A DNA stretch of 64,000 bases from Bifidobacterium sp. B4142 (GTDB lineage Bacteria; Actinomycetota; Actinomycetes; Actinomycetales; Bifidobacteriaceae), in contig NZ_JAFNMJ010000004.1 in assembly GCF_026537325.1 (NCBI RefSeq), positions 1 through 64,000 on the forward strand. The letters run 5' to 3'. Both the position numbers and the translations under genes were made by a program. Under the pieces are notes generated by a model. It saw nothing but the letters and a program-made list of their open reading frames with translations, was not told where the DNA came from and did not search any database. This document shows positions 14,478 through 64,000 of the stretch, piece after piece. The stretch's first letter is position 1; each line of letters begins with the position of its first letter.

Positions 14478-14506
14478 TATTTTCCTTAATTCTGTTCCCA
14501 GTGCCT

Positions 14507-17591: not shown

Positions 17592-17640
17592 GGTCTCTCC
17601 TTCATTGGACGTAACCAACGCCACCTCATAGTGACTATAT

Positions 17641-34638: not shown

Positions 34639-34824
34639 CCTGACCTCCAGTATCAGCTTCTTCACCTGCTTTACTAGGATCAATAAAGCTGTATATTTCC
34701 GTACAACACGATCCATGGGTTAATCTACTGCAAAGCAAACAGAAAAAATAGGTTTGACTTTTTACCCATTTCGCACTATGCGGAACTATGAGGAAAATGC
34801 GCGTGGATGTTGCGCCTTGCTGTC

Positions 34825-42363: not shown

Positions 42364-43851
42364 TCAGACCGACTTCGGCTCACCCTTATGCTCCAACAGG
42401 CAGATGCCACCGAAGACCAGCAGCCAGACCAATCCCAATATGGCTGGATACCGGGTGTCGGGAGCCAGGAAGAGCGAAAAGTAGATCAGAACGAAAAAGA
42501 CGATGGCAACGGCTCCAGTCACCCGGTAGGCCGGCATGATGAATCCATCGGGTATGAAGTCCTTGCTGGTCCGGTAGCGGCGGTGAGCAAACAGGGTCAG
42601 GATGTAGATGAAGATGATGACCGCACTGGAACAGGAGGTGAACAGGACGAAGGTGTCCTCGAAGCCGGGCAACAGATGCAACACCGGAGATAAGAGGATC
42701 AGCGCCCCGGATAGGACGATGGCCCGGGCGGGCACCTTGCCGCGCCGCGAAATCGTATGCAGGCTGCGCATCACTGGAGAGTGGCCGGCAGCTGCCAGCT
42801 GGAAGAGGTTGCGGCCAGCGGAGTAGAGCAGGGAGTTTAGCGAGGAGCTGGCTGCCGTGATGACCACGAAGAAGACCAGAGCGGCCGCCCAGTCCACCCC
42901 GGCGTAACGGAAAACCATGACGAAGGGCGAGGTGAAGCTGCCGTCGGCGTTGGGCCGGAAGGAGCGCCAGGGCACGATCAGCATGATGGCGACCAGAGCG
43001 CCCACGTAGAAGATCAACACCCTCAGGATGATCTGGTTGATGGCCTTGGGCAGGACCTTGCGGGGATTCTGGGTCTCGGAAACGGTGACTCCCACGAATT
43101 CGATCATCTCGTAGGCGAAGAAGACCATCTGGAAGCTCATGAAGAAGGCCATCCACCCGTTGGGCGCCAGACTCAGGCCTGTGGTGATGTTGTCCAGGCC
43201 CGCATGGCCGGCCGGGCTGATCCGGTCCTGTCCCGGCATGTGGACGGCCGGATAGTGGAAGCCTGTGACGACCATGACCACAGCCGTGGCGATCATGGCC
43301 AGGATCAGGGTGATCTTGATCATGGAGAACCAGAACTCGGTCTCCCCGAAGACCCGCACGGCGATCAGATTGACGCTCACCATGGCCGCCAGGAAGCAGA
43401 GCTCGATCAGACCCCGCCAGGCACTCAGATCAATGCCGAAGGTGTCGAAGAAAGTGACGAAGTAGGTGCCTACAGCGGTCAGCTCGGACATGCCGATCAG
43501 GATAAGCACGATCCAGTATGACCAGCCGGCGAAGGATCCCCACCCCTGGCCCAGGTAGCGGCTGATGAAGGCGATGAAAGTATGCTGGACAGGACTGCGG
43601 TACATGAGTTCGCCTATGGCCCGCATGAGCAAGTACATGATCACGCCGACGCCGATGTAGACCAGGATGATGGAGGGTCCGGTCAGGGCTATGGACTTGC
43701 CCGACCCTAGGAAGAGGCCGGTGCCGATGGTGCCGCCGATGGCGATGAACTGCACGTGGCGGTTGCTCAGCCCGCGCTCCATGCCGTCGCCCGACGAGGC
43801 GCCGCCACCCTGATGCTCCTGCGCCGAAGGGCCATTACCCGTGCGGTTCAT
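42364..43851 (-). CDS. Amino acid permease, APC family
   Basis: This 495-residue transporter has twelve predicted helices. The first helix motif FIAIGGTIGTGLFLGSGKSI is the APC substrate/proton signature, and ELMYRSPVQHTFIAF, SETQNPRKVLPKAINQIILR and ITAASSSLNSLLYSAGRNLF are typical of the amino acid transporter (AAT) group (aromatic, basic or branched amino acids; D-Ser/D-Ala/Gly type). AAGGAGGTGC precedes the ATG at 43851, which sets the start. It is divergent from a second APC permease at 44129, with a shared 277-bp promoter region. Specificity cannot be predicted. Confidence 0.88.
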   Translation of the reverse strand: MNRTGNGPSAQEHQGGGASSGDGMERGLSNRHVQFIAIGGTIGTGLFLGSGKSIALTGPSIILVYIGVGVIMYLLMRAIGELMYRSPVQHTFIAFISRYLGQGWGSFAGWSYWIVLILIGMSELTAVGTYFVTFFDTFGIDLSAWRGLIELCFLAAMVSVNLIAVRVFGETEFWFSMIKITLILAMIATAVVMVVTGFHYPAVHMPGQDRISPAGHAGLDNITTGLSLAPNGWMAFFMSFQMVFFAYEMIEFVGVTVSETQNPRKVLPKAINQIILRVLIFYVGALVAIMLIVPWRSFRPNADGSFTSPFVMVFRYAGVDWAAALVFFVVITAASSSLNSLLYSAGRNLFQLAAAGHSPVMRSLHTISRRGKVPARAIVLSGALILLSPVLHLLPGFEDTFVLFTSCSSAVIIFIYILTLFAHRRYRTSKDFIPDGFIMPAYRVTGAVAIVFFVLIYFSLFLAPDTRYPAILGLVWLLVFGGICLLEHKGEPKSV

Positions 43852-44128
43852 CCAACTGCACCTCCTTGTCTTCGCAACCTGTCTGTGGTCGTCGGCCAAA
43901 GCGGATGCCCCGTAGAGGCCGGTAGGACAGCAATACCACAGGGGTGTCGATAACCGCCGCAGAGGCCTGGCGGCTGTCATCCGGCGAATCAGGTATCTCA
44001 TATTGCGGACACTGTTATTCCACAATACAAAGGCAATGTCCCTCAGCCCGGGAGGCTCCGATAGGGTTGGCCCTGTCAACCGGCCGTATTCAGCTGACGA
44101 CTATCACCACCTAAGGAATGGCATCCCC

Positions 44129-45586
44129 ATGGATCAACCCAAGGAGTCGCAAGGCAAGGACCTGCACAAGACCCTGAAGAACAGGCACATCCAGCTCATC
44201 TCGCTGGGCGGCGCCATCGGGACGGGACTCTTCTACGGGTCCGGGGAATCCATTTCATTGGCAGGACCGGCCATCATCATCGCCTATTTGATAGGCGGTC
44301 TGGCCATCTTCATGATCGTCAGGGCTCTGAGCGAAATGAGCGTGGAAGACCCTAAGTCCGGCGCTTTCAGCTACTATGCCACCCGCTACTGGTCCAAGCG
44401 TGCGGGCTTTGTGTCGGGGTGGAACTACTGGATGAACTACGTGTTGGTGTCCATGGTCGAACTCTCCGTAGTAGGCACCTTCGTCAACTTCTGGTTCCCG
44501 GCGATACCGGCTTGGGTCTCTGCAGCCTTCTTCCTGGTGGTCATCACGGCCGCCAACCTGATGGGGGTCAGCAAGTTCGGCGAGTTCGAGTTCTGGTTCG
44601 CCATCATCAAGATTGCAGCCATCGTCGCCATGATCATCGGCGGGCTGGCCGTCGTGATCATGGCCCTGCCCACAGCCAACGGCCTGCGGGCCTCCTTCGC
44701 CAACTGGTTCACCGTAAGCGGCGGATTCCTGCCCAACGGGCTCATGCGTCACGGGGCCAATGGCCAGTGGACCGGTCTGCTCATGTCGCTGGCGGTGGTC
44801 ATGTTCAGCTTCGGCGGCACCGAGCTCATCGGCATTACCGCCGGGGAGGCCTCCGATCCCCGCCGGACCATTCCCAAGGCCACCAACGCCATCATCTGGA
44901 GGATCCTGGTCTTCTACATCCTGACACTTGGGGTGATCATGGCCGTAGTCCCCTGGAATGCCATCGGCAAGCCCAACGCGCAAGGCATGGTCGTCAGCCC
45001 CTTCGTTCAGATCTTCGACTCGGTTGGTGTCCACGCGGCCGCAGGCATCCTCAACTTCGTTTGCCTGACCGCAGTCATGAGCGTCTACAACTCGGCCCTC
45101 TACTCCAACTCCCGCATGCTCTTCTCCCTGGCCCGGCAAGGCAATGCCCCCAAGTACCTGGGAAGGCTTTCCAAGGGAGGGGTGCCCTACGCAGGAGTGC
45201 TGACCTCGGCCTGCATCATCGCCCTGGCGGTGGTAGTGGTCTTCCTCTGGCCCCAGTTCGCCTTCAACTACTTGATGAGCATCGCCACGATCTCGGCCAT
45301 CATCAACTGGTCCATGATCATGGTGACCGAGATGCTCTTCCGGCGTGCTGTTGCTCGTGGCAAAGGCCCCGGCGACCTGGCGGGCAAAACCGGCGAAAGC
45401 GCTTTGAATGCCCTGCACTTCAAGCTGCCCTTTGCCCGGGTGACCCCTTGGGCGGTCCTGGCTTTCCTGGCCATGATCGTGGTACTCATGTGCTTCTCGC
45501 CCAGCTACCGGGTAGCTGTCATCGCCGGGCCCATCTGGCTGATCGTTCTTCTGACGGCCTACCAGCTGACCCAGCGGCGAGCCTGA
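44129..45586 (+). CDS. Amino acid permease, APC family (AAT group)
   Basis: This 485-residue proton symporter has twelve helices. The key segments are LISLGGAIGTGLFYGSGESI at the first helix, FGGTELIGITAGEASDPRRT (helix 6 region and following loop) and VMSVYNSALYSNSRMLFSLA. The last is typical of AAT transporters such as AroP, GabP and LysP. The ATG at 44129 follows AAGGAATGG. It is transcribed away from the other APC gene and towards the lnp operon, with about 109 bp between the convergent stops. Substrate is not determined. Confidence 0.88.
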   Translation: MDQPKESQGKDLHKTLKNRHIQLISLGGAIGTGLFYGSGESISLAGPAIIIAYLIGGLAIFMIVRALSEMSVEDPKSGAFSYYATRYWSKRAGFVSGWNYWMNYVLVSMVELSVVGTFVNFWFPAIPAWVSAAFFLVVITAANLMGVSKFGEFEFWFAIIKIAAIVAMIIGGLAVVIMALPTANGLRASFANWFTVSGGFLPNGLMRHGANGQWTGLLMSLAVVMFSFGGTELIGITAGEASDPRRTIPKATNAIIWRILVFYILTLGVIMAVVPWNAIGKPNAQGMVVSPFVQIFDSVGVHAAAGILNFVCLTAVMSVYNSALYSNSRMLFSLARQGNAPKYLGRLSKGGVPYAGVLTSACIIALAVVVVFLWPQFAFNYLMSIATISAIINWSMIMVTEMLFRRAVARGKGPGDLAGKTGESALNALHFKLPFARVTPWAVLAFLAMIVVLMCFSPSYRVAVIAGPIWLIVLLTAYQLTQRRA

Positions 45587-45695: not shown

Positions 45696-48600
45696 CTAGA
45701 GGCTGGTAATCCGCAGATTATCGAGAACCAGATCCTGGTAGCCAGCCATGTTGGCCTCCGAGCCGCTGCTGCCTTCCAGATCTGGTCCTCTGTCAGTGGA
45801 GTAAATGCCGAACCAGGTATCGCCATTCGGATCGCCAGTCAGCTCGAACTCGCATCTGGCGGTGACCCCCAGAGCCTTGTGCAAGGGATACAGGTTCAGA
45901 TCCTCACCGGTGTACTCGCCTCTACCTGTTGCCAGGGCGTATATGCCGTCTGATCCGCACTGGTAGTCGAACGAGACCCTGTAGCGTCGACCCGGCGCAA
46001 AGGGGACGTTCTGGGGAATGGTCTGGAAGAGGAGAGCGCGTCTCCCAGTCAGACCGTTGACTTTCAGAGACCAGTCACCCTGGAGGACATCGTCCATCCT
46101 CTTGACATCCCACCCAGCCTGCGTGAAGGGCTCATGCAGCTGGGCCAGGTGGATTCGGTTGTCTTCCACCCCTTCAGCTCCAGCCACCACAAAGGGCCAG
46201 ATGCCCTGGACGTTATCTTCAAAATCACAGGTAAGCTCAACCAGATGACCGTCCTGGTCCAGGCTGATGCCATCGTATTCGTTCTCAACCAGGCGAATGT
46301 CGTCAAGGTAGGCGGCGCCATCCCCTTCATGGGCCAAGGCCAGACGGGTCTGCCCACCCTTGGGAGCCGTGAAGAAGAGATAGGCATTCTGAAAGTAGCT
46401 GCTACCGTCAGTCGTTGGAGCATCGGTGTTGTGGGCGTAGGCCTTGACATAGTTTTTGGCAATGCTCGGGCCGCTCATATTGCGAGCCAGCACCCCACCC
46501 TGGTCCGCATCCACACTCAGCTCGACCTGGCCGCCACGGTTGTCAAGCCCTAAATAGAGGGCATACCTCTTGCCTGGCACCAGGTTGGTCAGGGGTTGCA
46601 CAGCACAGACCGAACCCTCAAGCCTAAGCATGGGATTGGCGCACTGACCCTTGGTGATCGAGGCACGTCCGGGCCCCTTCACGGACCAGACCGACTGGAA
46701 CAGCCTTTCGCCGCCGTTGAACCCTGCATCCACTAGATGCTCTCCTGACCAGTCCACCTGGACTCCCTGGCCCGCATGCCGGCAGACCAGGTAGGGTGTT
46801 CTGGGCTTGGCATCCAGGGTGAGGCTCCCCTGCACCACCGGAATTTCCCTTGGCTCCGATCTGCCCTGGTCGGTCAGCCGGTAGACGATGACGACAGAGG
46901 CATCGCGCCACGATTCCGGGAGCTCCCAGGTGGTCGAGCCGCCTGCAGTATTCCAGTGGTAGAGCTTCTGCTCATCTGGATCCAGCCGATCCCCCGTATT
47001 GGCATCCCAGACCCAGGGCAGCAGATACGCTCCTGCGCCGGTTCCGGTTTCAATCCCAGGCTTGTCGGCCTTGGGGTCATTGGCCTCCAGCTCGCCGACA
47101 AGCACCACTCGGTCATTCAGCCTCATCGTGCGCTCGCGGTAGGCGGGCGATGTCTGCTCATTGGAACCCCTGGAAATGACCAGCCTGTCACCTTGATCAT
47201 TGACCAGCTCAATCTGTTCGTTCCCCTGATTCTTGGTCAAGTCACGCACTGAATCGACATTGATGGGGTCGTTGTACCAGGCCATGATTCTAAAGTGCTG
47301 GATGAACTTGGTCGAGAGGTCGCAGGTATAGAGGTTATCCATATAGGCATCGAAGTCGTTGCGTCCCTGCCATCCCTCGAAGTCCTTCATGCTGTAGCCG
47401 TCCAGGAGCGGGGCGTTGGCTGCGCCTCCGAAGGCTCGGTGATCACCTATCCAGCTGTCCTTCTGGTGGTTGCGCAGAAAGCGCATGACCTGGGAGTTCT
47501 CACCTTTGTCGTGAGAGGATCCATAGGTCAAATCCAGGGACCAATGCTGGAAGGCGGCATCATACTCATTGGCCGAAGCGTACTCCGTGCCAATCCCCCA
47601 CCCGTTATCGGTCAAAATCTTCGAGAGCTGCCGGGTTTGCCAGGAATCCTCCTCCCCCGAGGTCCCATCGCCCCAGACATCCACATACACGAAGTCCATC
47701 CTGTCACCGACCTCACGGGCGAGGGCGGCAAAGCGTTCCCTCCTGGCGCCCGAGGCCAGGTCGTAGATACCATCGATACCCACGGTCTGATCCAGCCAGT
47801 TCCAGCCGTAGCAGAGGCCGCCCTTGTCATCCCTACGGATCATGTCTTCAGAAAAGGCATTGGCCTCGGGAAACATCTCATCCACATTGACATGGACACC
47901 AAACCGGGCCCCATAGGTCTTGCCCCTGTCCATCAAGGTATTCATGTCCTGGAGTCCGCCGATTCGTCGACCAATGTCGTCGTAGTCCGGATGGCCGGAG
48001 TCGTGGCCCTCGTTGCCATATCCCTTGAGAAGGACTGACTGACCCAGGCCATCGGTAGCCAGGGCCACCCGCTTGACGTTATCCAAGGTTGTCATGAAGG
48101 GATTCTGGGCCTGGGAGCCAAAGTTCATGGCTATGCGTCGTGCCACTTGGTCCGGGACATCATCAGAACCATACGGATTGTTCATGATGCGTCTGAAGGC
48201 GATGGCACCATCCTGCCAGTTGACCACCCCGTCATCATTCAGGTCTCCGGCCAGAGCTACTGCCATGGCGGGCTTGTCCGTCTCCCCGACCGTATAAGAG
48301 CGTCCGTGGGAATCCTGGACCACCCGGTTGTATATCCAAGGTGCGCTGGTCAAGCCGAGGACGGTGACTCCGTCCACCTGGTCGCGAACCGCCAGAACCC
48401 TGGTGTTCTGCGCGCCACCGGTTCCTGTTTTGCTGGCCGTGGTCCCATCGTGTTCGGAGTTGCTCCAGAGGCCGGCACTGAGGCCATCCGCAGAGAGGAA
48501 GCCATACATGTAGTCCTGCCCGATAGGATCCTCCTCCATCTGCCCAGTGACCGCCCGGTGCACATCGCCACTGATGGAGACGTCCGCAGACATGCGAGCG

Positions 48601-49070
48601 CCGGTAAACTCCGCATCCGCCTGAGTGTTGGTCACGGAAATCAGGCATTGTCCAGGGAAGGCCACCGTCTGGACTGGATGGTCGGGGCCAGCCTGGTTCC
48701 CAATCGAGATCACCTTAAAGCTCAGAGAGGCGTCCTCGACTGAAATGCGGACCGCCAAAACCGCATCAATCCCCTGCTCTGCGGCGATCGCATGGAGTCG
48801 ATAGACCAGACTTGTCTCATTCTCCCGTTCCAGCTCCACCTTGTCAGGACCCAGCTCAATCTCGATGCCGTTGATGGCCACCAGACGCAGATCCCGGACC
48901 TGCCCAAGCATGGTTCCTTCAGCCTGAGGCGTCTTCAACCGATAGTCAATCACCGAAGGAAAGTCAGGCCTGAGGCGCACTTCCATTATTTGAGTATGCA
49001 GGGTCTCCCAGGAGTCCGTGGCGCCCGGCCTCGCGATCGGTTGGTTTCCGCCCATGATTGTTCCGCCCAT
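45696..49070 (-). CDS. GH101 endo-alpha-N-acetylgalactosaminidase, no signal peptide
   Basis: This 1124-residue enzyme releases Gal-beta1,3-GalNAc from Ser/Thr of O-glycans. It opens MGGTIMGGNQPIARPG with no signal peptide, CBM tail or cell-wall anchor, unlike EngBF of B. longum (about 1966 residues, secreted and anchored). The N-terminal beta-sandwich spans about 25-280. A TIM barrel follows, with GDLNDDGVVNWQDGAIAFRR (285-304) and FGSQAQNPFMTTLDNVKRVA. The likely nucleophile is Asp464 in VYVDVWGDG and the likely acid/base is Glu496 in GIGTEYASANEYD. C-terminal beta domains (about 640-1124) include a galactose-binding-like module. Start 49070 is backed by AGGGGATG. It is the last gene of the lnp operon, 39 bp after galT. 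Confidence 0.93.
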   Translation of the reverse strand: MGGTIMGGNQPIARPGATDSWETLHTQIMEVRLRPDFPSVIDYRLKTPQAEGTMLGQVRDLRLVAINGIEIELGPDKVELERENETSLVYRLHAIAAEQGIDAVLAVRISVEDASLSFKVISIGNQAGPDHPVQTVAFPGQCLISVTNTQADAEFTGARMSADVSISGDVHRAVTGQMEEDPIGQDYMYGFLSADGLSAGLWSNSEHDGTTASKTGTGGAQNTRVLAVRDQVDGVTVLGLTSAPWIYNRVVQDSHGRSYTVGETDKPAMAVALAGDLNDDGVVNWQDGAIAFRRIMNNPYGSDDVPDQVARRIAMNFGSQAQNPFMTTLDNVKRVALATDGLGQSVLLKGYGNEGHDSGHPDYDDIGRRIGGLQDMNTLMDRGKTYGARFGVHVNVDEMFPEANAFSEDMIRRDDKGGLCYGWNWLDQTVGIDGIYDLASGARRERFAALAREVGDRMDFVYVDVWGDGTSGEEDSWQTRQLSKILTDNGWGIGTEYASANEYDAAFQHWSLDLTYGSSHDKGENSQVMRFLRNHQKDSWIGDHRAFGGAANAPLLDGYSMKDFEGWQGRNDFDAYMDNLYTCDLSTKFIQHFRIMAWYNDPINVDSVRDLTKNQGNEQIELVNDQGDRLVISRGSNEQTSPAYRERTMRLNDRVVLVGELEANDPKADKPGIETGTGAGAYLLPWVWDANTGDRLDPDEQKLYHWNTAGGSTTWELPESWRDASVVIVYRLTDQGRSEPREIPVVQGSLTLDAKPRTPYLVCRHAGQGVQVDWSGEHLVDAGFNGGERLFQSVWSVKGPGRASITKGQCANPMLRLEGSVCAVQPLTNLVPGKRYALYLGLDNRGGQVELSVDADQGGVLARNMSGPSIAKNYVKAYAHNTDAPTTDGSSYFQNAYLFFTAPKGGQTRLALAHEGDGAAYLDDIRLVENEYDGISLDQDGHLVELTCDFEDNVQGIWPFVVAGAEGVEDNRIHLAQLHEPFTQAGWDVKRMDDVLQGDWSLKVNGLTGRRALLFQTIPQNVPFAPGRRYRVSFDYQCGSDGIYALATGRGEYTGEDLNLYPLHKALGVTARCEFELTGDPNGDTWFGIYSTDRGPDLEGSSGSEANMAGYQDLVLDNLRITSL

Positions 49071-49109
49071 CGGTCATCCCCTGTCATTGGTGTTATTCAT
49101 CTACGCCGC

Positions 49110-50581
49110 CTACCGGCAACCCAGCCCCCGCAGGAATTCCTCGGTCTGTTCGGGCCGCTTAAAGACTGCGGTGTTGCCCAAGATCCGGGCGCAGACACTG
49201 CCGATCTCACTCTTAAGGGCCTCATGGATCTTCTCCGGATCATGCGAACCCCGCAGAGCCTTGGTAATTTCGCCATACTCCAAGCTGAAGTCGGCCACTT
49301 GTTCGGAAAGCCCGGTACCTGCCACCAGGGCCTCTTCCAGGCAGGCAAGCTGGCCGACCAGCCTTCCGGGCAGGACGAAGAGCCCCTGGGCCTCGATCAG
49401 CCCGATGGGTTCCTGCTTGACCGGATAGAACTCCGGGTGCACGTGGAAGATGCCATCAGGAAACTGCGGACTGACACCGTTATTGCGCAGGATCAGGCTC
49501 ATCTCGTAGCCTCGGTCGGTCTTGACCAGGCTGGGTGAAAGGGCTGATTGCCGCCCTTCTGGCCCCTGGCTGGCGATGTTTAGGTCCGGGTTGTCGTAAT
49601 CCACCCAGGCCTGCCTGATGGTCTCGCTGACCTCGATAATCTCCTGCCGTGACGGCGAAACCACTCTGACCACGGTCCCCGGCCAGTCCAGAATCTCGAT
49701 AGGAGTATCAGGGTGGCCGTCCAAGTGCAGGGTCCGCCAAGCTCCGGCCTGATGCACAGGCAGACGCTCTCCTCCGCCCTGATAGTGATCATGAGCCAGA
49801 ACGGATCCGCCAATTCGGGGCAGGGCGGCGTTGCAGCCTAGGAAGTAGCCGGGGAAACGGTCCACAAAATCCAGCAGATTCCCAAAGGTGTCCCGATCCA
49901 CGTGCATGGGGGTGTGATCAGCGTTGACACAGATGCCATGCTCGCGGAAGTACCCATAGGGCGAGAACTGCCAGAACCAGTCGTGGCCGCCCAGAGTCAG
50001 TGGGATGGTCCGCAGTGTACGCTTGTCACGCCCGGCGAAGCCCTCATTTTCATGGCAGATGGTGCACTTGGGGTACCCGCCTGCGGTGCTGTTGCCCGCC
50101 GCAGCCTTCTTCATGTCCTTGAATTCCGGCTTGGCCAGGTTGATGGTGACCACCACGCCCCCGGAGGAGAAACGAGGGTTCCTGTCCAGACGGGACTTCT
50201 TGATGTAGGTATTTTTGACGCAATAGTCATAGAACCAGTGCATGGCAGCCATACCACCCTGGGCCCCCTCCACCTGCGTGAAGCGCCGCTGCAGCTGGGA
50301 TGGCCTAGAGGACAGGATTCCCATGACCGTATCTGCCATGGAGAGGGCCTCATCCTGAGCCATAAGACCGGCACCCTCCAAGGCCTGCATAAAGGACTCC
50401 AGGAGTTCATCGACGCCACCGGAGGCGGGATCAGCAGATCCATCCCCGGAATCGTAGGAGTGCAAGGAGAAAAGCGCCAGGATCTGATTGCGAGCCCAGT
50501 CGACATCGGACGGGTCCAGGTCCAGACAGGCACAGGCGTACCCGATCAGAGCATCGAGGCTCCGGTAAACCCGATTCAGCA

Positions 50582-50582
<1 letters not shown>
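49110..50582 (-). CDS. galT: UDP-glucose:hexose-1-phosphate uridylyltransferase
   Basis: This GalT of the type common in Firmicutes and bifidobacteria (lnpC position) has 490 residues. It transfers UMP from UDP-glucose to galactose-1-phosphate or N-acetylhexosamine-1-phosphate. Signatures are YPKCTICHENEGFAGR, GHDWFWQFSPYGYFREHGIC and NAALPRIGGSVLAHDHYQGG, the last with the His cluster that includes the nucleophilic His. TGATG overlaps the nahK stop with the galT start. It completes entry of Gal-1-P and GalNAc-1-P into the Leloir pathway. Confidence 0.92.
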
Positions 50583-53861
<3,279 letters not shown>

Positions 53862-53927
53862 TGAATCAAATCTCCTTGGAATATCTCGTAACGGAATGAC
53901 TGAAAAACTGTGTGCAGCCTTGGACCC

Positions 53928-54863
53928 TTACTCCTTGACCGAACCGGCGGTCAGTCCAGCCTGCCAGAACCGCTGCAGGCAGAAGAAGAGGATGATCACC
54001 GGCAGAACACCCAGCAGCGACCCCATCATCAGCGCCCCTCGATCGGTAAAGACCGGCAGAGAGACCAGACCATAGAGGCCCAGGGTCACCGGGAAGAGGT
54101 TCTCGCTGGAGAGCATCATCAGCGGCAGGAGGAAGTTGTTCCAGGTGGCCACGAAGAGGAAGAGGAAGATCGTGACCATGGCGGGCGCAAGAATCCTCAA
54201 CACGATCGTGAAGAAGATCCTGGCTTCACCGGCACCGTCGATCCTGGCCGCCTCCAGAAGCTCGGTAGGTACCGAACTTTGGGCATATACCCTTCCCAGG
54301 AAGAAACCGAAGGGCGAGACCGAGCAGGGGATGATCACTGCCAGCATGGTGTTGCTCAGATGCAGGGCATTGAAGATGGAGTACTGGGGGATGGTCATCA
54401 GTGCCGAGGGCATCAGCAGGGCAGACATGGCGATAGTCATGACGACACCCCTGCCCCGGAACTGGAACTTGGCTGTGCCATACCCGGCCATGACCGAAAC
54501 CACCGTGCCGATCAGGGCGGATACCCCTGAGTAAATCAAGGAATTAAAGACCCAATGCCAGAACTGTGAGTGTGTCCAGCCCAGGAGGATCGAGTAGTTG
54601 GTGGCCACCGCCTGGGGAATCTTCTTCAGGTCGACAGCAAACCAGAGGCCGTTGCTGCTGACCAGCTGGGAGGGCGACTTGGTAGAGGCGATGATGGCCC
54701 AGTAGATGGGAAAGAGGAAGTAGATCAGGGCGAAAACCAGGACCACGATGGTGGTGATCTTGACCACCTTGGTGGGCCTCATGGAGCGGGGCAGTTCATC
54801 GGCCTTCTGCTTGAGGAGCTTCTCCTGCTTTTTTGCGAGGCGTGCGGGGTTGGCCGAGGTCAT
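53928..54863 (-). CDS. gltC: Galacto-N-biose/lacto-N-biose ABC transporter permease
   Basis: This MalG-type permease has 311 residues, a Lys-rich N-terminus of about 35 residues and six helices. The EAA loop EAARIDGAGEARIFFTIVLR is near residue 205. ATGA overlaps the stop of the first permease gene. It is followed 66 bp later by lnpA. The gene order matches the gltABC-lnpABCD locus of infant-type bifidobacteria. Confidence 0.9.
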   Translation of the reverse strand: MTSANPARLAKKQEKLLKQKADELPRSMRPTKVVKITTIVVLVFALIYFLFPIYWAIIASTKSPSQLVSSNGLWFAVDLKKIPQAVATNYSILLGWTHSQFWHWVFNSLIYSGVSALIGTVVSVMAGYGTAKFQFRGRGVVMTIAMSALLMPSALMTIPQYSIFNALHLSNTMLAVIIPCSVSPFGFFLGRVYAQSSVPTELLEAARIDGAGEARIFFTIVLRILAPAMVTIFLFLFVATWNNFLLPLMMLSSENLFPVTLGLYGLVSLPVFTDRGALMMGSLLGVLPVIILFFCLQRFWQAGLTAGSVKE

Positions 54864-55816
54864 GATTCGTTCACCTTCCTCTCGATGTATGCGTAGAGGG
54901 CGGCAAGGACCCCGGCAATCAGTGCCATGACGATTGCGATGGCGGAAGCCGGACCGTCACCCTTAGGGGTGAGGATGCCTCGTGACGTGTTCATGGCCAT
55001 CATCATAGGGGTGTAGGAGTTCGATATGCCCTTGTCGACGGTCTGCATGACCTGGGGCTCGTTGAAGAGCTGGATGCTGCCGATGATGGACAGGAGCATA
55101 GCTAGGAGGGCCGCCCCCCTGACGTTGGGGAGCTTGATCCTCATGGCGATCTGGAAGCCGTTGGCTCCGTCGATTCGTGCAGCCTCATAGAGATCACGAG
55201 GGATGGCCTGGAGAGCCGCCAGGAAGATCAGCATGTTGTAGCCCGTGAAGGTCCAGGTGGTGATGTTGGCCATGGAGGCGATCAGAGCGTTGGGCGCGAA
55301 GAAGTTGACATGGATTCCTATGGCTGCCAGGCCCTTGACGATGGGCGAGAACTGGTCGTTGTAAAGGAATACCCAGATGATGGCCGCGATCGCGCCCGGG
55401 ATGGCATAGGGCAGGAAGTAGCCCAGCCGATAGGGGGTGACATGCTTGACGATGAAGGAATCCAGAAGCATGGCCAGGGACAGGGCGGCGATGATCATGA
55501 CCGGGACCTGGATGACCGTGTAGATCAGGACCCTGCCGATGCCGGTCCAGAAGGCTGCGGAGGTGACTGTAAATCGGAAGTTCTCCAACCCGACGAACTT
55601 ATTGATCATCTCGCCCCCGCCGTAGGCGCCGCCGCCCGAGGCCACCTGCTGGAAGAAGCTCATATAGACGGCATAGGCAATGGGGATGATGAAGACGATC
55701 GCAAAGAGGATGCAGAAAGGCATCATGAATGCCCAACCCGTCCGTTCGTTGCGTTTGACGATCTCGGATCTCCCCTTCTTCTGAGCCCCTGCCTCAGCTG
55801 CTGTTCGATGGCTCAT
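54860..55816 (-). CDS. gltB: Galacto-N-biose/lacto-N-biose ABC transporter permease
   Basis: This MalF-type permease has 318 residues, six helices and the EAA loop EAARIDGANGFQIAMRIKLP near residue 210. It continues GSIQLFNEPQVMQTV, typical of this group. AGAGGATGGG lies before the ATG. It starts 143 bp after the binding-protein gene, with a hairpin between, and is coupled to gltC. Confidence 0.9.
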   Translation of the reverse strand: MSHRTAAEAGAQKKGRSEIVKRNERTGWAFMMPFCILFAIVFIIPIAYAVYMSFFQQVASGGGAYGGGEMINKFVGLENFRFTVTSAAFWTGIGRVLIYTVIQVPVMIIAALSLAMLLDSFIVKHVTPYRLGYFLPYAIPGAIAAIIWVFLYNDQFSPIVKGLAAIGIHVNFFAPNALIASMANITTWTFTGYNMLIFLAALQAIPRDLYEAARIDGANGFQIAMRIKLPNVRGAALLAMLLSIIGSIQLFNEPQVMQTVDKGISNSYTPMMMAMNTSRGILTPKGDGPASAIAIVMALIAGVLAALYAYIERKVNES

Positions 55817-55868
55817 GTGAATAACCCATCCTCTCGGAACCTATAAGGCGAGCGACCTTCCAGCAGGC

Positions 55869-55899
55869 GGGGAACACGGGCCACAGACCTGGGTTCCCC
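55869..55899 (-). other. Stem-loop between gltA and gltB
   Basis: GGGGAAC (55869-55875) pairs with GTTCCCC (55893-55899), with partial extension inside the loop. It lies in the 143-bp gap after the binding-protein stop. As in region 534-586, such a hairpin may protect the binding-protein mRNA and reduce permease output. Confidence 0.5.
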
Positions 55900-55959
55900 A
55901 ACCTGGTGAGATTGTCAGGGAAGGTCTCCCTGCTGTATCCGCCGAAGAGCGGTTACCGA

Positions 55960-57285
55960 TCAATCCTTGGCGATCGGAAGGCCATAATCCTTCAGTGTGG
56001 CAAGGGATGTCTTCTGTGCTGCATCGAAGGCATCGGAGACCTTAGCTTGACCCTTGCCGGCCTTGTCGGCAGCCTCGCCGACGGCGCTGCTCACCGCGGA
56101 GAATCCGGGCATGTAGTTGAAGGAGCCCATGTTGGCGTTGGCCTTGGCAAACTCCGCCATCACGTCCTGCCCGCCGAAGAACTCGGTCCAGGACTGGGGG
56201 GTCTTGGCTTTCTCGGTGGAGGCCGCGACAATCAGACCCTGAGAGGTCAGATCAGGCACCTGGGTGTTGAACCAATCCAGGAACTCCATGGCCTCTGCCT
56301 TGTGCTTGGTGCCCTTGATGGCTGCAACGCCCGAACCGCCGTTGGGTCCGGTCTTCTCGCCGTTCTTGAACCAGTCGCCGATCTGGGTGACCCTCCACTG
56401 GCCCTTGCCGGCATCACCGATCCAGTCCATCATGATCGGGGCATTCCAGGCGGCGTCGATGGATCCGATAATGGAGCCGTCATGGAAGGCGCCAGCGAAG
56501 GAGGGGTCGGTGCTGGGGGTCAGGTTCATCGCCTTGGCATCGAGCAGCTGCTGGTAGAAGTCGGCTGTGGCCTTGGAGCCGGGCGTATCAACGTTGACGA
56601 CCCACTTGCCGTCCTTGATTTTGTACCAGGGAGATGACGCACCGGAAAGGGCGGAGAAGGCCATGCCTGCACCATCGGGCTGGTAGGTCATGATGTACTT
56701 GCCCTGAGCCGCTGCCTTCTTGGCCGATTCGATGAATTCCTCGGCCGTGGTGGGAACCTTAATGCCCAGCTTGTCGAATTCCGTCTTGTTGTAGTAGTAG
56801 ACCATGGGGCCGGTATCCTGGGGCAGACCGAAGACCTTGCCGTCCACGCTCATGAGCTTGCTGGGACCCTCTGCGAAGTCTTTGGAGTACTTGCCTGCCT
56901 CTGCAGTGACGTCCTCGACGATGCCCTTGGTATAGACCTCGGGCAGCTCAGCGTAACCTACCTGGGCCAGATCGGGAGCATTACCGGCCTTGACGTCGGT
57001 CTCCAGCTTCTTGATCAGGTCGCCGGGGCTGCCGTTGAACTTGGTGGCCTTGACCTGGATGTTCGGGTGATCCTTGTTCCACCTGGCCACGGTGTCCTTG
57101 ACCATGGTCATGCCCTGCTTGTCGGGAAGACGGTGCAGGTATGTCAGTTCGACCTTGCCACCCGACTTGGTGTCACCGCCCTTGCTGGCACCGGATCCGC
57201 CGGAGGAACCGCACCCGGCCAATGCCATGCTTAAGGCCGCCACTGCAGCCATGGCCGCCATTATGCGTTTGCTGCTGGTTCTCAT
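55960..57285 (-). CDS. gltA: Galacto-N-biose/lacto-N-biose-binding lipoprotein
   Basis: This 441-residue solute-binding protein has lipobox LAGC (Cys25) and a Gly/Ser/Lys linker. It continues VELTYLHRLPDKQGMTMVKD and VGYAELPEVYTKGIVEDVTA, then LPQDTGPMVYYYNKTEF. It matches the GL-BP class known from B. longum, which binds lacto-N-biose and galacto-N-biose. AAGGGGTG precedes the ATG. It opens the lnp operon (seven genes to 45696). Its ligand here may also include galacto-N-biose linked to an amino acid or peptide, given the unusual GH101 at the operon end; that is inference. Confidence 0.92.
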   Translation of the reverse strand: MRTSSKRIMAAMAAVAALSMALAGCGSSGGSGASKGGDTKSGGKVELTYLHRLPDKQGMTMVKDTVARWNKDHPNIQVKATKFNGSPGDLIKKLETDVKAGNAPDLAQVGYAELPEVYTKGIVEDVTAEAGKYSKDFAEGPSKLMSVDGKVFGLPQDTGPMVYYYNKTEFDKLGIKVPTTAEEFIESAKKAAAQGKYIMTYQPDGAGMAFSALSGASSPWYKIKDGKWVVNVDTPGSKATADFYQQLLDAKAMNLTPSTDPSFAGAFHDGSIIGSIDAAWNAPIMMDWIGDAGKGQWRVTQIGDWFKNGEKTGPNGGSGVAAIKGTKHKAEAMEFLDWFNTQVPDLTSQGLIVAASTEKAKTPQSWTEFFGGQDVMAEFAKANANMGSFNYMPGFSAVSSAVGEAADKAGKGQAKVSDAFDAAQKTSLATLKDYGLPIAKD

Positions 57286-57874: not shown

Positions 57875-59350
57875 ATGGCGACCAGGCAGGGCGGAAAGGA
57901 CAGCCCCTCCGCTTCCACCGACCGGGTTCAACGCAACCTTAAAACCCGACACGTCACCATGATCGCCCTGGGCGGCTGCATCGGCACCGGCCTGTTCATG
58001 ACCTCCGGCTCCACCATCGCCAAGGCCGGACCAGGAGGCGCGCTGGTGGCCTACGCGGCCATGGGCCTCATGGTCTATTTCCTGATGACCAGCCTGGGCG
58101 AGCTGGCCACCCACCTGCCCACCTCCGGCTCCTTTGCCGCATACAACGCCCGCTATGTGGATCCGGCCCTGGGATTCGCCATGGGTTGGAACTACTGGCT
58201 GAACTGGGCCATCACCGTGGCTGTGGACATCTCCACCGCCGCCCTGCTGATCCAGTACTGGCTGCCCAACACCCCAGGATGGGTCTGGAGCCTGCTGGTC
58301 CTAGTAGTCATCTTCCTGATCAACGCCCTGACCGTGTCGGCCTTCGGCGAGGCCGAGTTCTGGCTGGCTCTGATCAAGGTGGTAACGGTGATCGTCTTCC
58401 TGGTCATCGGTCTGGCCATGATCTGCGGCATCATGTTCCGCCCAGCCGTGGGCCTGGGCAATTTCACCTACAAGGACGCCCCCTTCGTGGGAGGATTCCC
58501 CGCCATCCTCAACGTCTTTCTGATTGCAGGCTTCTCCTTCCAGGGCACTGAGCTGATCGGGGTCACGGCCGGCGAGTCCGAAAACCCTGGCAAGGCGGTT
58601 CCCAAGGCCATCAACGACGTCTTCTGGCGGATCCTGCTCTTCTACGTGCTGTCCATCTTCGTCATCGCCGCCCTGATCCCCTACACCAGCTCCAATCTGC
58701 TGAGCTCCGCCGAGGGGGACATCGCCATGTCACCCTTCACCATGGTCTTCCAGCGGGCGGGCCTGGCCTCGGCAGCCAGCGTCATGAACGCCATCATCCT
58801 GACCTCGGTCCTCTCGTCCGCCAACTCGGGTGTCTACGCCTCCACCCGGATGCTCTACGCCCTTGCCAAGGACCATTACGCCCCCGCCTTCTTCGGGCAC
58901 ACCACCCGTCACGGCATACCCATGGCCTCGCTGATCGCCACTCTCGTGGTCTCCCTGGCCACCTTTGCCGCCAGCATCTTCGGCCAGCAGATGTACATGT
59001 GGCTGGTGGCCGCCTCGGGGCTGACCGGATTCATCGTCTGGGTCGGCATCGCCCTGAGCCATTACCGCTTCCGTCGCGCCTGGGTGGTCCAAGGCCACCG
59101 GGTTGAGGAGTTGCGCTACCATGCCAAGCTCTTCCCCCTGGGGCCCATCCTGGCCCTGATCCTGTGCATCATCGTCATCGGCGGGCAGAACATCGAGGCC
59201 TTCGTCAACTGGAACTGGCAGGAGATCGGCATCACCTACATCAGCGTGCCCCTGGTGCTTGCCCTCTACCTGGGTTACAAGATCCGGTACCATACCCGGA
59301 TCGTGCCCCTGAAGGAGATGGATTTGAGCGGGGATCCGGAATCGCTATGA
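57875..59350 (+). CDS. Amino acid permease, APC family (first of tandem pair)
   Basis: This 491-residue permease has twelve helices. MIALGGCIGTGLFMTSGSTI marks helix 1, and GTELIGVTAGESENPGKAVP the helix 6 region and the loop after it. The closest known group is lysine- or GABA-type AAT permeases; specificity is not certain. AAGGAAAAG precedes the ATG. The next gene at 59555 encodes a near-identical copy with the same length of core, offset by 1710 bp without gaps in the aligned part. Confidence 0.88.
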   Translation: MATRQGGKDSPSASTDRVQRNLKTRHVTMIALGGCIGTGLFMTSGSTIAKAGPGGALVAYAAMGLMVYFLMTSLGELATHLPTSGSFAAYNARYVDPALGFAMGWNYWLNWAITVAVDISTAALLIQYWLPNTPGWVWSLLVLVVIFLINALTVSAFGEAEFWLALIKVVTVIVFLVIGLAMICGIMFRPAVGLGNFTYKDAPFVGGFPAILNVFLIAGFSFQGTELIGVTAGESENPGKAVPKAINDVFWRILLFYVLSIFVIAALIPYTSSNLLSSAEGDIAMSPFTMVFQRAGLASAASVMNAIILTSVLSSANSGVYASTRMLYALAKDHYAPAFFGHTTRHGIPMASLIATLVVSLATFAASIFGQQMYMWLVAASGLTGFIVWVGIALSHYRFRRAWVVQGHRVEELRYHAKLFPLGPILALILCIIVIGGQNIEAFVNWNWQEIGITYISVPLVLALYLGYKIRYHTRIVPLKEMDLSGDPESL

Positions 59351-59554
59351 CAGATCTGTCAACTACCATGACACATTGTGACCACGGGAGCCGAAAGGCC
59401 ATACCAATGGCATAGACTCCCTAAGCGTTCGAGGACCGGCTCAAGGACCCGGCCATATGAATCCATTCCGGCATCCAGCCGGCATATCAGGAATCGCAAT
59501 TTCAGTACGACCCCGGACTCCCCGGTGCGTCGCCCAGCCAAAAGGAGGAGGATC

Positions 59555-61060
59555 ATGACGCAGAACACCAGCAATGCAGCGTCGAACACCAATCAATCCG
59601 ACCGGGCCGGGCAAGAGCATCATGGCTACGGCAGCGTCAAGCGCAACCTCAAGACCCGCCACATCTCCATGATCGCCCTGGGCGGCTGCATCGGCACCGG
59701 CCTGTTCATGACCTCCGGCTCCACCATCTCTACAGCCGGCCCCGGCGGCGGACTTCTGGCCTACATAGCCATGGGCGTCATGGTCTACTTCCTGATGACC
59801 AGCCTGGGCGAGCTGGCCACCCACCTTCCAGTGTCGGGATCCTTCGCCGCCTACAGCGCCCGCTATGTGGATCCGGCCCTGGGATTCGCCATGGGCTGGG
59901 ACTACTGGCTGAACTGGACCATCTCGGGTGCCGTGGACATCTCCACCGCGGCCCTGCTGATCCAGTACTGGCTGCCCAACACCCCAGGATGGGTCTGGAG
60001 TCTGCTGGTCCTGGTCATCGTCTTCCTGATCAACGCCCTGACAGTCTCCGCATTCGGGGAAACCGAATTCTGGCTCTCACTGATCAAGGTGGCCACCATC
60101 ATCGTCTTCCTGGTCATCGGCATGGCCATGATCTGCGGCATCATGTTCCAGCCGGCGGTCGGCCTGAAGAACTTCACCTACAAGGACGCCCCCTTCGTGG
60201 GAGGATTCCCGGCCATCATGAGCGTCTTCCTGATCGCCGGCTATTCCTTCCAGGGCACCGAGGTAGTGGGCGTGACTGCCGGTGAATCCGAAAACCCCGG
60301 CAAGGCGGTCCCCAAGGCCATCAACGACGTCTTCTGGCGGATCCTGCTCTTCTATGTGCTGTCCATCTTCGTCATCGCCGCCCTGATCCCCTACACCAGC
60401 CCCAACCTCCTGGGAGCCTCCGACGGGAACATCGCCATGTCGCCATTCACCCTGGTCTTCCAGCGGGCCGGCCTGGCCTCGGCAGCCAGCGTCATGAATG
60501 CTGTGGTGCTGACATCCATCCTCTCGGCCGTCAACACCGGGGCCTACGCCTCCAGCCGCATGCTCTACGGACTGGCCAAGGATCACTATGCTCCGGCCAT
60601 CTTCGCCAAGACCACCAAGAGGGGCATCCCCCTGGCAGCTCTGGTGGCCACGGTATGCATGTCTCTGGCCACCTTCGCCTCCAGCATCTTCGGCCAGTCC
60701 TTCTACATGTGGCTGGTGACCGCCACCGGACTGACCGGATTCATCGCCTGGATCGGCATCGCCCTGAGCCACTTCCGCTTCCGGAGAGCCTTCAAGCTCC
60801 AGGGGCACGACCTGAGCGAGCTCAAGTACCACTCCAAGCTTTACCCGTTCGGCCCGGTCCTGGCCATGGTGCTCTGCGTCATCGTCATCGCCGGACAGGA
60901 CATCCCCTCCCTGATCAACCTGAACTGGTCGCACATGGCCATGACCTACTTCAGCGTGGTACTGGTCCTGGTCCTCTACCTGGGCTTCAAGTTCGTCAAC
61001 CACACCAAGATCGTGCGCCTCAAGGACATGGACGTGTCCGGCGCCGAATCCGCCCGCTGA
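59555..61060 (+). CDS. Amino acid permease, APC family (second of tandem pair)
   Basis: This 501-residue paralogue of the preceding gene starts at 59555, backed by the strong site AAAAGGAGGAGGATC. The N-terminal 35 residues differ (MTQNTSNAASNTNQSDRAGQ and onward); from KRNLKTRHISMIALGG on the two are very similar. Differences cluster in loops and in a few helix residues (for example WDYWLNWTISGAVD against WNYWLNWAITVAVD), which may mean related but distinct amino acid substrates. It is followed by a strong hairpin. About 204 bp separate the genes, so it could have its own promoter. Confidence 0.88.
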   Translation: MTQNTSNAASNTNQSDRAGQEHHGYGSVKRNLKTRHISMIALGGCIGTGLFMTSGSTISTAGPGGGLLAYIAMGVMVYFLMTSLGELATHLPVSGSFAAYSARYVDPALGFAMGWDYWLNWTISGAVDISTAALLIQYWLPNTPGWVWSLLVLVIVFLINALTVSAFGETEFWLSLIKVATIIVFLVIGMAMICGIMFQPAVGLKNFTYKDAPFVGGFPAIMSVFLIAGYSFQGTEVVGVTAGESENPGKAVPKAINDVFWRILLFYVLSIFVIAALIPYTSPNLLGASDGNIAMSPFTLVFQRAGLASAASVMNAVVLTSILSAVNTGAYASSRMLYGLAKDHYAPAIFAKTTKRGIPLAALVATVCMSLATFASSIFGQSFYMWLVTATGLTGFIAWIGIALSHFRFRRAFKLQGHDLSELKYHSKLYPFGPVLAMVLCVIVIAGQDIPSLINLNWSHMAMTYFSVVLVLVLYLGFKFVNHTKIVRLKDMDVSGAESAR

Positions 61061-61146: not shown

Positions 61147-64000
61147 CTAGGTCAACGACGATAACATCGACCTTCTGACCGGAATGGCCACCATCAAGGC
61201 CAGCGAGACCATGAGCAAAGCCGCCAAACTTACTGCAGCGACATCCGCCCCGGTGGAGGACAAACCACCGCCCCCGACCGATGCATCACGGACAGGGTCG
61301 TGACGACCATGCCCGCTGGCGCCGGCAGAGATCAGACTGGTACCTTGTCCTATACTGCCGTCCTGCGTCCCGTTTCCGCCCGGTCTGCTGAGGGGAACCA
61401 GGGCCTTGACAGCCTCCTGAAGACCCTTCAGCGCCTCATTAACAGCAGCCTGGTCGGCATCGGGATCGTCATAGACAGCCTGTGCCCGCATTCGAGCCGC
61501 AGTGAAAGCCATCCAGGAACCGGACTCATATTTGCCTTGATCCAAACCATCGGCCTTCTTCAAGGCAGCAGAAAGACCGGATTTGTCGACCTTGGCTATG
61601 GAATCAACCACCTTGACCCGGACTTTCACATCAGGGTGGGCGAGTTCTTCATCCGCATCCATGTCCAGCACAGGCAGACCATCCGCTGCCCAATGTACTC
61701 GGCGCACGAAAGTATCCCGCCCGGAATAGTTGCGGTAGCCATCCGTCTTGTTGGCGTATGCGTGGAAGACGTAGATCTGATTGCCGTCCTCGTCCTCGCT
61801 CCACATGCCATGGCCCGTGCCCAGCTGCCATTTTCCGTTGAAAATGCCTGAATTCTGGATGGGATAGTTAAGGTTGCTCCAACTGGCTGGATTGGTCAGA
61901 TCGGTATTGCCTGATCCGTCGGCCACGGCCATGCCCGTGGTGTAGGTCTTGCCGACCGAGGAACCGGAGTACATCAGATAGAGCTTGCCCTGGTGCAGGG
62001 TTACATTAGGCCCCTCGGCGATTGTGGCGTTCCAGGCGTAATCTGGGGCGACAATCCTCACCGGGTCGGCTGTGACGTGAGCAGGGTCGGCAGGATTCAT
62101 CCTGGCCAAATAGGTGGCGCCCAACTGCTGCCAGACATAATAGGATTGTCCCTTCTGATCCTGGAAGTAGCTCATATCCAAGGACATGCCGACACTTCCA
62201 TCAGCGGCAAGGGCCAGGGGACGCCCGTCGGAACGAGTCACGGCTTGCGGCCGCTCCCAGTTGGAAGCAACGGTCGGGTCGAGGTCATGACCTCCGGCAT
62301 CCTGCTTGAGCTGCATATAGACGGCCTTGCCATTGGTCCACTGGTTTCCGTATCCCGCCATGAACAGGACTGTCAACCTGCCGTTGATCTCGTGAATCTC
62401 GGGCGCCCAGAAGCTGTGCATGATCGGCTGCCCCTCTGCATCAGGATCCCCCGCCTTAAGGATGATGTGTTCCTTGGCGTTGTACCCGTTGGCATCAATC
62501 AACCCGGAATCCTGGCCAAGGGTGTCAGCCAGATCGGCGATGGCATCGGCCATCCGCAGGGGCATATGGGGACTGCCATGCTGCCAGGTGCAGTCTCCTT
62601 CAATGTCGTTGGTGGCGATCATGAGGTACTTGGTATCCACCCGTTCATGACCGTCCACCTGCCGCTTCCACTGCCACTTATAGATGGAGGGGTCAGCGCG
62701 CTCCTCAGCGAAAGGAACTCTGTAGGAGGTCTGGCCAATGGTGCCGGTGACCTCATATTCCCCGACTTTGTTCAAGTCAAGATGCGAGGTATCCCAGTCT
62801 TTGATGGGCAGTGAACCTGTGGAACCATCGGAATAGGTCAGTCGAGCGGTTTTCGGCAGCTTCAATCCGTTTGCTGAACTCCCCTTGGTCACGGTGATGT
62901 CCTTGAAATCGTTCACGCCGGTGTTGGCCAGACGACCGAATCGGGTTTGCAGGGCCTTGACACGGTCCTGATCAATGACGATGGACGAACCGTGGCGATA
63001 GTCATCAATACCCTGAACCTTTGACGCCGGTTGGCTGCCGCCGACTGTGGCGAACCGCCCAACATGAACAGGCCCATGCGCGGAATCCTTGTCCTTGAGC
63101 TCAGCGAAACTGGTGTACTTGGGCACTCCGTTGTCGTCATACCACCCGATCATGGTGGTCTTGGACGCCGTATCGTAGACCCCGTAGGGGCTGTTGACCC
63201 CGTTGGTTTCGCCCAGGTCAATCAGGCCTGCGGAATTCGGGGACTCCTCATAGGCAAGCAGGTCAGCAGACCGGGCAAAAAGCAGATGACCGGGACTGTC
63301 CGGCACATCCGTCCCCCGGTTGGTGCGCACGGAGAGGATACCGTAAGACCCATCCCCCATCATGAAAATCGAGGGATCCTTGAGGCTGCGCGCGTAGTCC
63401 CTGGTGTTCTGGTTGACGGGCTGCGAGGCGTAACCCAGTGGGAAGAAGATGCCATAGTTGCCGTTGTAGGGCTGGTACCGCCCCGAAGCTTCGTCCTTGA
63501 GGGCCAGATGCATGCTGTGCGCGATATCGCCGTTGTTGGCAGTATCCGCCGAGGTCGCATTACGGTCGTAGGCAAGGAGGGTGCTGGCCTTCGACTTGGG
63601 AAGGACTTTCACCTCGAAGTCTTTGACAATAGGTTCAGCAACTCCCGCAGCTGTGATTGTGGCAGTGATCCGTCCAGAGACAGGTTTGTCGCCAGCTATG
63701 GAGACCAGTCCCCCGTCTTGGATGGAGATGCCGGAAGCGGCCTTCAGCTGCAGAGTCGTATGATCCGGAGCCACAGGAAGCTTGGTCCCCGAGGCGATCA
63801 GGGGCGGGATGACGTAACCGTCAGCCGCCTCCTGCAACCTCTCGGCCTTGGTCTTCGTACTCGGTTTTACGGTGATGCGGTAGCTCTTGCTGCCGGTCAA
63901 TCCACGCACTGTGGTGGTAGCCGTCATGGTTACCGTTTGATCCTGAGCGCCGGAGGGCGGCTGGTTGACCATACCTGTATCAGTGATGACCGAAGGATCC
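61147..64000 (-). CDS. Surface GH43-like glycosidase with Ig-like and FIVAR modules (N-terminus beyond window)
   Basis: This is a partial gene: the frame stays open past the ATG at 63972 to the right edge, so at least 951 codons are visible. In order it shows an Ig-like tail (SKSYRITVKPS) and a second Ig-like stretch. A GH43-type beta-propeller part follows with KDPSIFMMGDGSYG (probable catalytic Asp), then a Big_4-like module (LPKTARLTYSDGSTGSLPIK) and the rest of the propeller with SFWAPEIHEINGRLTV and AEGPNVTLHQGKLYLMYSGS (probable acid Glu). A FIVAR repeat (about ALKKADGLDQGKYESGS on) comes next, and the C-terminus has a possible sortase-like LSSTG, a membrane helix and a basic tail. Arabinofuranosidase or xylosidase activity on plant glycans is likely but not proved. 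Confidence 0.82.
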   Translation of the reverse strand, partial: DPSVITDTGMVNQPPSGAQDQTVTMTATTTVRGLTGSKSYRITVKPSTKTKAERLQEAADGYVIPPLIASGTKLPVAPDHTTLQLKAASGISIQDGGLVSIAGDKPVSGRITATITAAGVAEPIVKDFEVKVLPKSKASTLLAYDRNATSADTANNGDIAHSMHLALKDEASGRYQPYNGNYGIFFPLGYASQPVNQNTRDYARSLKDPSIFMMGDGSYGILSVRTNRGTDVPDSPGHLLFARSADLLAYEESPNSAGLIDLGETNGVNSPYGVYDTASKTTMIGWYDDNGVPKYTSFAELKDKDSAHGPVHVGRFATVGGSQPASKVQGIDDYRHGSSIVIDQDRVKALQTRFGRLANTGVNDFKDITVTKGSSANGLKLPKTARLTYSDGSTGSLPIKDWDTSHLDLNKVGEYEVTGTIGQTSYRVPFAEERADPSIYKWQWKRQVDGHERVDTKYLMIATNDIEGDCTWQHGSPHMPLRMADAIADLADTLGQDSGLIDANGYNAKEHIILKAGDPDAEGQPIMHSFWAPEIHEINGRLTVLFMAGYGNQWTNGKAVYMQLKQDAGGHDLDPTVASNWERPQAVTRSDGRPLALAADGSVGMSLDMSYFQDQKGQSYYVWQQLGATYLARMNPADPAHVTADPVRIVAPDYAWNATIAEGPNVTLHQGKLYLMYSGSSVGKTYTTGMAVADGSGNTDLTNPASWSNLNYPIQNSGIFNGKWQLGTGHGMWSEDEDGNQIYVFHAYANKTDGYRNYSGRDTFVRRVHWAADGLPVLDMDADEELAHPDVKVRVKVVDSIAKVDKSGLSAALKKADGLDQGKYESGSWMAFTAARMRAQAVYDDPDADQAAVNEALKGLQEAVKALVPLSRPGGNGTQDGSIGQGTSLISAGASGHGRHDPVRDASVGGGGLSSTGADVAAVSLAALLMVSLALMVAIPVRRSMLSSLT

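Follow-up and report, generated by a model that had tools for sequence, protein, structure and literature searches.

The endo-alpha-N-acetylgalactosaminidase of Bifidobacterium longum, EngBF (PDB 2ZXQ), belongs to glycoside hydrolase family GH101. The B. longum GH101 is described as extracellular in the available portions of two papers (PMC8106489, PMC7674204), and those of a third list GH101 in the secreted bifidobacterial pan-genome (PMC4623478). The same species has a gltABC-lnpA-nahK-galT-galE cluster, in which an importer, a GH112 phosphorylase, a kinase candidate and GalT are encoded in one operon. The present analysis concerns a related operon for galacto-N-biose (GNB) and lacto-N-biose (LNB) in a 64,000-nucleotide stretch of DNA from Bifidobacterium sp. 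B4142 (contig NZ_JAFNMJ010000004.1, positions 1 to 64,000), hereafter the window. All of these components are present, but the operon lacks galE and carries a GH101 gene at its 3' end. The encoded enzyme shares with EngBF the GH101 core, the catalytic Asp/Glu pair and the tryptophans, but it lacks the signal peptide, the N-terminal domain, the C-terminal region and the anchor, is rich in cysteine, and is encoded inside the GNB operon. On this and the comparative evidence given below, the GH101 of the operon is very probably a cytosolic enzyme. No report of a cytosolic EngBF-type GH101 was found in the literature searched, most subscription papers lying outside its reach.

Partial precedents exist for the dismantling of imported glyco-amino acids. 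NagBb of B. bifidum is described in the accessible part of PMC7232152 as lacking a signal peptide; its presumed substrate is GalNAc-Ser/Thr, brought in by an "unknown transporter" and cut in the cytosol. The enzyme is placed in GH129 there and in the available text of PMC8106489, and is labelled GH101 in that of PMC7674204. The likeness would lie in a signal-less enzyme acting on an imported O-glyco-amino acid, but NagBb is of another family and acts on the Tn antigen. Similarly, L. casei imports and catabolizes fucosyl-GlcNAc-Asn, according to the part of PMC6960285 that was available. The alf-2 system of L. casei is comparable in that a glyco-amino acid is imported and dismantled inside by enzymes of the operon, but the substrate is an N-glycan core, the permease is AlfH and the enzymes are different.

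The seven genes occupy 57285 to 45696 of the minus strand in the order gltA-gltB-gltC-lnpA-nahK-galT, followed by GH101, and every open reading frame (ORF) of the seven same-direction genes described in an earlier note on this DNA was recovered at its coordinates. A Pfam/NCBIfam profile search of the window ORFs assigned the products to SBP_bac_1, two BPD_transp_1, GH112, an APH-fold kinase, class-II GalT and GH101. The gltA gene (55960..57285) encodes a solute-binding lipoprotein of a GNB/LNB ATP-binding cassette (ABC) importer of the GL-BP family (PF01547; 590 bits to 7vfq and 575 bits to GL-BP 2z8d), and gltB (54860..55816) and gltC (53928..54863) encode ABC permeases (PF00528) that recur in all six operons of this type identified below. 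The lnpA product (51696..53861) is a three-domain GH112 phosphorylase (TIGR02336, 1198 bits against a cut-off of 560; PF09508/PF17385/PF17386). The N-acetylhexosamine 1-kinase candidate nahK (50582..51667; PF01636) was named by its position and APH fold; the listed ORF, which starts at 52030 and overlaps lnpA, is over-extended, and the likely start is the ATG at 51667. The product of galT (49110..50582; PF01087) is a class-II hexose-1-phosphate uridylyltransferase that scored 774.6 bits against NF003632, under the equivalog cut-off of 865. Only 39 nucleotides separate the end of galT from the start of the GH101 gene (45696..49070). A promoter and terminator scan gave matches no more frequent than in shuffled sequence. 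The host genome comprises 2.22 Mb in 19 contigs.

The GH101 is a 1124-residue endo-alpha-N-acetylgalactosaminidase core in which all five Pfam core domains (PF18080, PF12905, PF17451, PF21466 and PF17974) were matched over residues 25-1110, the catalytic domain PF12905 with 400.8 bits against a cut-off of 25. The match to EngBF chains, including 2zxq, was about 1400 bits. W423, W425, D464 and E496 are invariant across 24 aligned GH101s, in agreement with the earlier description of an intact Asp464/Glu496 pair; we take D464 and E496 to be the catalytic residues and W423 and W425 to be the stacking tryptophans. The predicted activity of the short enzyme is the release of Gal-beta1,3-GalNAc from alpha-linked Ser/Thr. 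The codons that precede and include the start at 49070 are TGA-CCG-ATG, and a longer N-terminus is impossible because of this in-frame stop two codons upstream; the N-terminal extension that had been allowed for in the earlier note is thereby ruled out. The N-terminus has no hydrophobic stretch and the protein ends with its core domain, GalBD_like, as expected if both signal peptide and anchor are absent, as had been proposed.

The genus was sampled with 27 species genomes, including that of the window. GH101 was found in 11 of them and LnpA in the same 11, the other 16 having neither. In six genomes, each with a single GH101 match, a short GH101 is located at the 3' end of gltABC-lnpA-nahK-galT, so that a signal-less GH101 near lnpA, which the earlier note had proposed to look for elsewhere, does recur. 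In five others, the gene directly upstream of gltA encodes a secreted-type GH101 of 1821-1828 residues that has a signal-like stretch at the N-terminus and a hydrophobic tail at the C-terminus. No genome has both. The secreted-form operons (L072-L074, L098 and L019) have the same enzyme set, belong to the same genus sample and carry the sister clade of GH101, but they differ in the length of this enzyme, its signal and anchor, its place upstream of gltA and the genomic site. Carriers of the short form include Bifidobacterium asteroides ESL0199, B. apousia W8102, B. mizhiense S053-2 and a Bifidobacterium metagenome-assembled genome. B. apousia and B. mizhiense are presumably bee isolates, and we infer that the strain of the window also lives in bees. 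The source of another B. asteroides strain, PRL2011, is given as the honeybee hindgut in the available part of PMC5540593. In the wider family, 46 of 189 genomes were matched and 31 places spanned the whole domain; apart from the six short forms, the only ORF shorter than 1626 residues was one of 988, near a contig end.

Similar linkage of lnpA and GH101 also occurs in Firmicutes, where the export signal is kept. In Catonella morbi (L099 5560-14797), GH101 follows lnpA and nahK in the same direction, but that enzyme has 1938 residues and a hydrophobic N-terminal stretch. On a Pseudoflavonifractor contig (L109 1-8085), the end of lnpA lies beside a GH101 with a signal-like N-terminus.

Export was assessed with a hydrophobicity scan, which is not SignalP, using a threshold of 1.6 over the first 80 residues. 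The loci considered by name were the best 80 of 181 GH101 matches, 73 of them with a closed 5' end, and a hydrophobic stretch was present in 67 of the 73. The six without it were the four named bee short forms, a fragment (L097) and the B. tsurumiense locus L104, whose ORF begins inside the N-terminal domain. When 17 family loci (L148-L164) were scanned, two long ORFs, L159 and L156, were without the stretch at the called start. The maximum over the first 70 residues was 0.65-0.68 in the four named short forms and at least 1.99 in the long bifidobacterial ORFs with closed 5' ends, except L104/L159 (1.02) and L156 (0.94). The C-terminal extension and hydrophobic tail were confined to the five bee long forms. 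Among distant Actinomycetes, the stretch was found in 15 of 16 loci from the class and 17 of 18 distinct loci from the order, four of the latter 17 having twin-arginine-like starts by eye; the exceptions were a contig-cut ORF (L060) and an ORF that begins inside the core (L242). The order survey matched 46 of 396 genomes, and 20 loci were examined, two of which were set aside, one as a duplicate and one for want of a GH101 match. Candidate signal-less GH101s in other Actinomycetes, suggested by the 70-residue scan, were rejected, since in every case but one contig-cut ORF the stretch lies beyond these residues, ahead of the core. A length of about 1100 residues does not by itself indicate a cytosolic enzyme, because some of these distant ORFs are of similar size and keep the stretch. 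Within the sample surveyed, only the bee clade has lost the signal cleanly.

The cysteine content points in the same direction. The cores of all six short forms have 9-12 cysteines, compared with 0-1 in the 23 long-form Bifidobacteriaceae cores (five from bees and eighteen others) and 0-4 in the remaining 18 rows, and seven cysteine positions are common to the five aligned short forms. Such richness, as expected of a cytosolic protein, would be a second and independent sign of its location.

In a core tree of 47 rows, all short forms group together with support 100, and the bee secreted forms are their sister group (98); the short-form clade falls within Bifidobacteriaceae, on a stem of 0.62 changes per column; the tree was made by a quick method and the short rows were flagged for deviating composition. 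Because the forms around it in the tree are nearly all long and secreted, the simplest origin of the short form would be a secreted, anchored ancestor that lost the signal, the N-terminal domain and the C-terminal region. The mean omega of the short GH101 is 0.120 (0.099-0.157; 15 pairs; mean synonymous divergence, dS, 0.53), as compared with 0.118 for galT and 0.091 for the secreted GH101, values which indicate that the short enzyme is under purifying selection. The intracellular location proposed in the earlier note is thus upheld by the absence of signal, anchor and extension, by the cysteine-rich core and by retention in six genomes under purifying selection. In a tree of galE, which is a single gene and gave weak nodes, the short-form, long-form and operon-free genomes interleave; the conclusions do not draw on it.

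The binding protein also changed in the short-form lineage. Changes fixed in the short versus the long group, with B. tsurumiense as the outgroup, numbered 59:29 for GltA (p 0.0018) and 92:45 for GH101 (p 0.0001), while the counts were 15:12 for GltB and 15:10 for GltC. By these counts GltA and GH101 changed faster on the short-form than on the long-form branch, and LnpA did the opposite; both differ strongly from LnpA (Fisher p about 4e-8 for GltA and 3e-9 for GH101). When the outgroups were extended by B. longum GL-BP and 7vfq, 34 of 403 GltA columns were specific to the short group and 14 to the long group, of which 10 and 3, respectively, were radical. The 34 include E205G, R258S, W259T, E281N and D315N, and a tryptophan also occupies the W259 column in the distant 6h0h. 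Group-specific changes in GltA fall at positions that do not vary among the other sequences compared.

If the GH101 is cytosolic, the alpha-linked disaccharide would have to enter the cell still attached to something. A secreted, anchored GH101 would have been trimmed to its catalytic core, placed last in the GNB/LNB operon and put to work in the cytosol. The core-1 O-glycan (Gal-beta1,3-GalNAc-alpha) on Ser/Thr or on a very short peptide would enter, most likely through GltABC, whose binding protein is altered in this lineage; GH101 would free GNB inside, LnpA would phosphorolyse it to Gal-1-P and GalNAc, and NahK, GalT and a chromosomal GalE would feed both sugars to central metabolism. The released amino acid or peptide would be a by-product with no operon gene dedicated to it. 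Import of a glyco-amino acid or short glycopeptide as the GH101 substrate appears likely, while the chance that GltABC itself is the importer is put a little below even. The reading as a whole, cytosolic cleavage of imported GNB-alpha-Ser/Thr or a short glycopeptide followed by LnpA, is favoured by a modest margin over its being wrong. Bee host O-glycans would be a plausible source: core-1 is the dominant Drosophila O-glycan, and Tn and T antigens occur in the nests of one wasp, according to the accessible part of PMC6272458. In the available part of PMC12345172, 7VFQ is described as lacto-N-tetraose bound to a B. infantis protein, so the binding-protein family of GltA can take a ligand extended at the reducing end.

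Several observations weigh against this reading. 1) The cytosolic control GalT scored 1.75 over its first 80 residues, above the threshold of the scan, 2) the long-form ORFs L104 (whose genome is that of L159) and L156 also had no hydrophobic stretch at the called start, which is probably a start or frame problem, 3) the LnpA imbalance was reversed, 10:42 with outgroups L104 and L079 or 18:55 with L079 alone, 4) GltA and GH101 did not differ significantly from the two permeases (p 0.28 and 0.24), and the GltA excess in particular was not significantly above theirs (Fisher p 0.28), 5) the operon includes neither a peptidase nor a peptide transporter, and 6) the GalE of the genome best matched 8wxk and 2c20, and its action on UDP-GalNAc is uncertain because B. 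longum GalE (6K0H) was not among its 13 matches at 1e-60.

The most serious alternative, which is nevertheless rather unlikely, is that the cytosolic GH101 acts on glyco-amino acids or glycopeptides brought in not by GltABC but by a transporter of peptides or amino acids, and that GltABC still imports free GNB/LNB released by other gut bacteria. GL-BP is reported as specific for LNB and GNB in the available portion of PMC8106489, and that of PMC12345172 describes further GNB uptake routes in B. infantis, a double mutant of which was still able to grow on GNB. Against this alternative stand the 34 versus 14 group-specific positions of GltA, with no such excess in the permeases, and the occurrence of the flanking amino-acid permeases without the operon. 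Much less probable is exit of the signal-less enzyme by lysis or non-classical export and action on mucin in the manner of the secreted form. The intact catalytic core and the secreted sister form in the same pathway are compatible with this route, but the loss of the N-terminal domain, the C-terminal region and the anchor, the 9-12 core cysteines against 0-1 in 23 long-form relatives, and the position of the gene as the last in an operon of enzymes that work in the cytosol all argue for retention in the cell. With no export route, GH101 would be limited to an imported or internally made substrate.

The natural aglycone is not fixed by the sequence, so the enzyme, though cytosolic, could serve another alpha-GNB glycoside, such as one with a non-peptide aglycone, or could transglycosylate; we consider this slightly less probable again than export, since the linkage of GH101 to the GNB catabolism operon in all six short-form genomes indicates a role in degradation. 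Loss of the flanking domains would also be seen in a decaying remnant of the secreted enzyme with no present role, but the reading frame is intact in six of six genomes, the catalytic residues are invariant, and an omega of 0.12 at a mean dS of 0.53, like that of galT, reflects a purifying selection that leaves this explanation hardly any probability.

The short-form pathway is a variant of a known pathway and not a new kind of system. A more specific extension of intracellular cleavage is offered only tentatively, namely, that GltABC of the short clade has been re-tuned for T-antigen glyco-amino acids or short O-glycopeptides and forms with the cytosolic GH101 a private intracellular pathway that leaves no free GNB to competitors, the reverse of the secreted strategy of the sister bee strains. 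If true, a clade in which GH101 moved inside as the binding protein changed would amount to a switch, arisen in nature, from public to private foraging on glycans, comparable between related strains of one genus, and GltABC would be a candidate for the "unknown transporter" of bifidobacterial O-glyco-amino acids. The trimmed soluble GH101 is offered as a tool.

The earlier note also stated that GH101 replaces galE. Relative to B. longum this holds, but the expression misleads, since the secreted-form operons of the bee strains have no galE next to galT either. A missing epimerase was considered and rejected, galE being over the cut-off in all 27 genomes, away from the operon; in the genome of the window the only GalE over the cut-off is encoded at G000:C1:424372-425424 (L178 370-1425).

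Four amino-acid permease genes, at 42364-45586 and 57875-61060, constitute an older block around the operon. The argument that these flanking genes would salvage the released residues did not survive comparison, as the four permeases sit together without the operon at all seven sites inspected (five in genomes without any GH101 and two in genomes with the long form elsewhere; at the L218 site, one of the four is known from a separate genus-wide match comparison only). The permeases therefore preceded the operon. The pair at 57875 and 59378 has matches in 21 of the 27 genomes, with or without the operon. At four of the seven operon-free sites, a gene of 318-341 residues, dehydrogenase-like by eye, lies between the permeases.

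GH129 (PF11308), considered as an alternative alpha-GalNAc enzyme, had no match in the profile search or in any of the 27 genomes; the positive control, four of four genomes of another genus of the family, was matched with weak scores. GH20, a possible source of LNB, was found in 17 of the 27 genomes, with one weak match (47.8 bits) in that of the window and none in three of the six short-form genomes (G004, G019 and G021); this search for an LNB source covered GH20, not GH136.

Elsewhere in the window, an FTR1-family iron permease gene (32836-34716) has about 69-85% identity between related genomes, as compared with about 94-99% for most of its neighbours in the closest relatives, which suggests fast change or exchange. 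At 61147-63972 lies the gene of a large GH43 protein that also carries a bacterial Ig-like domain and continues past the called ORF (L174), where it has a signal-like start; a large protein of 1057 residues adjoins it. Finally, a GH2 enzyme with a mannosidase-type Ig domain lies beside ABC sugar-transporter genes at 12330-17645, a region that is possibly a second glycan-import cluster.

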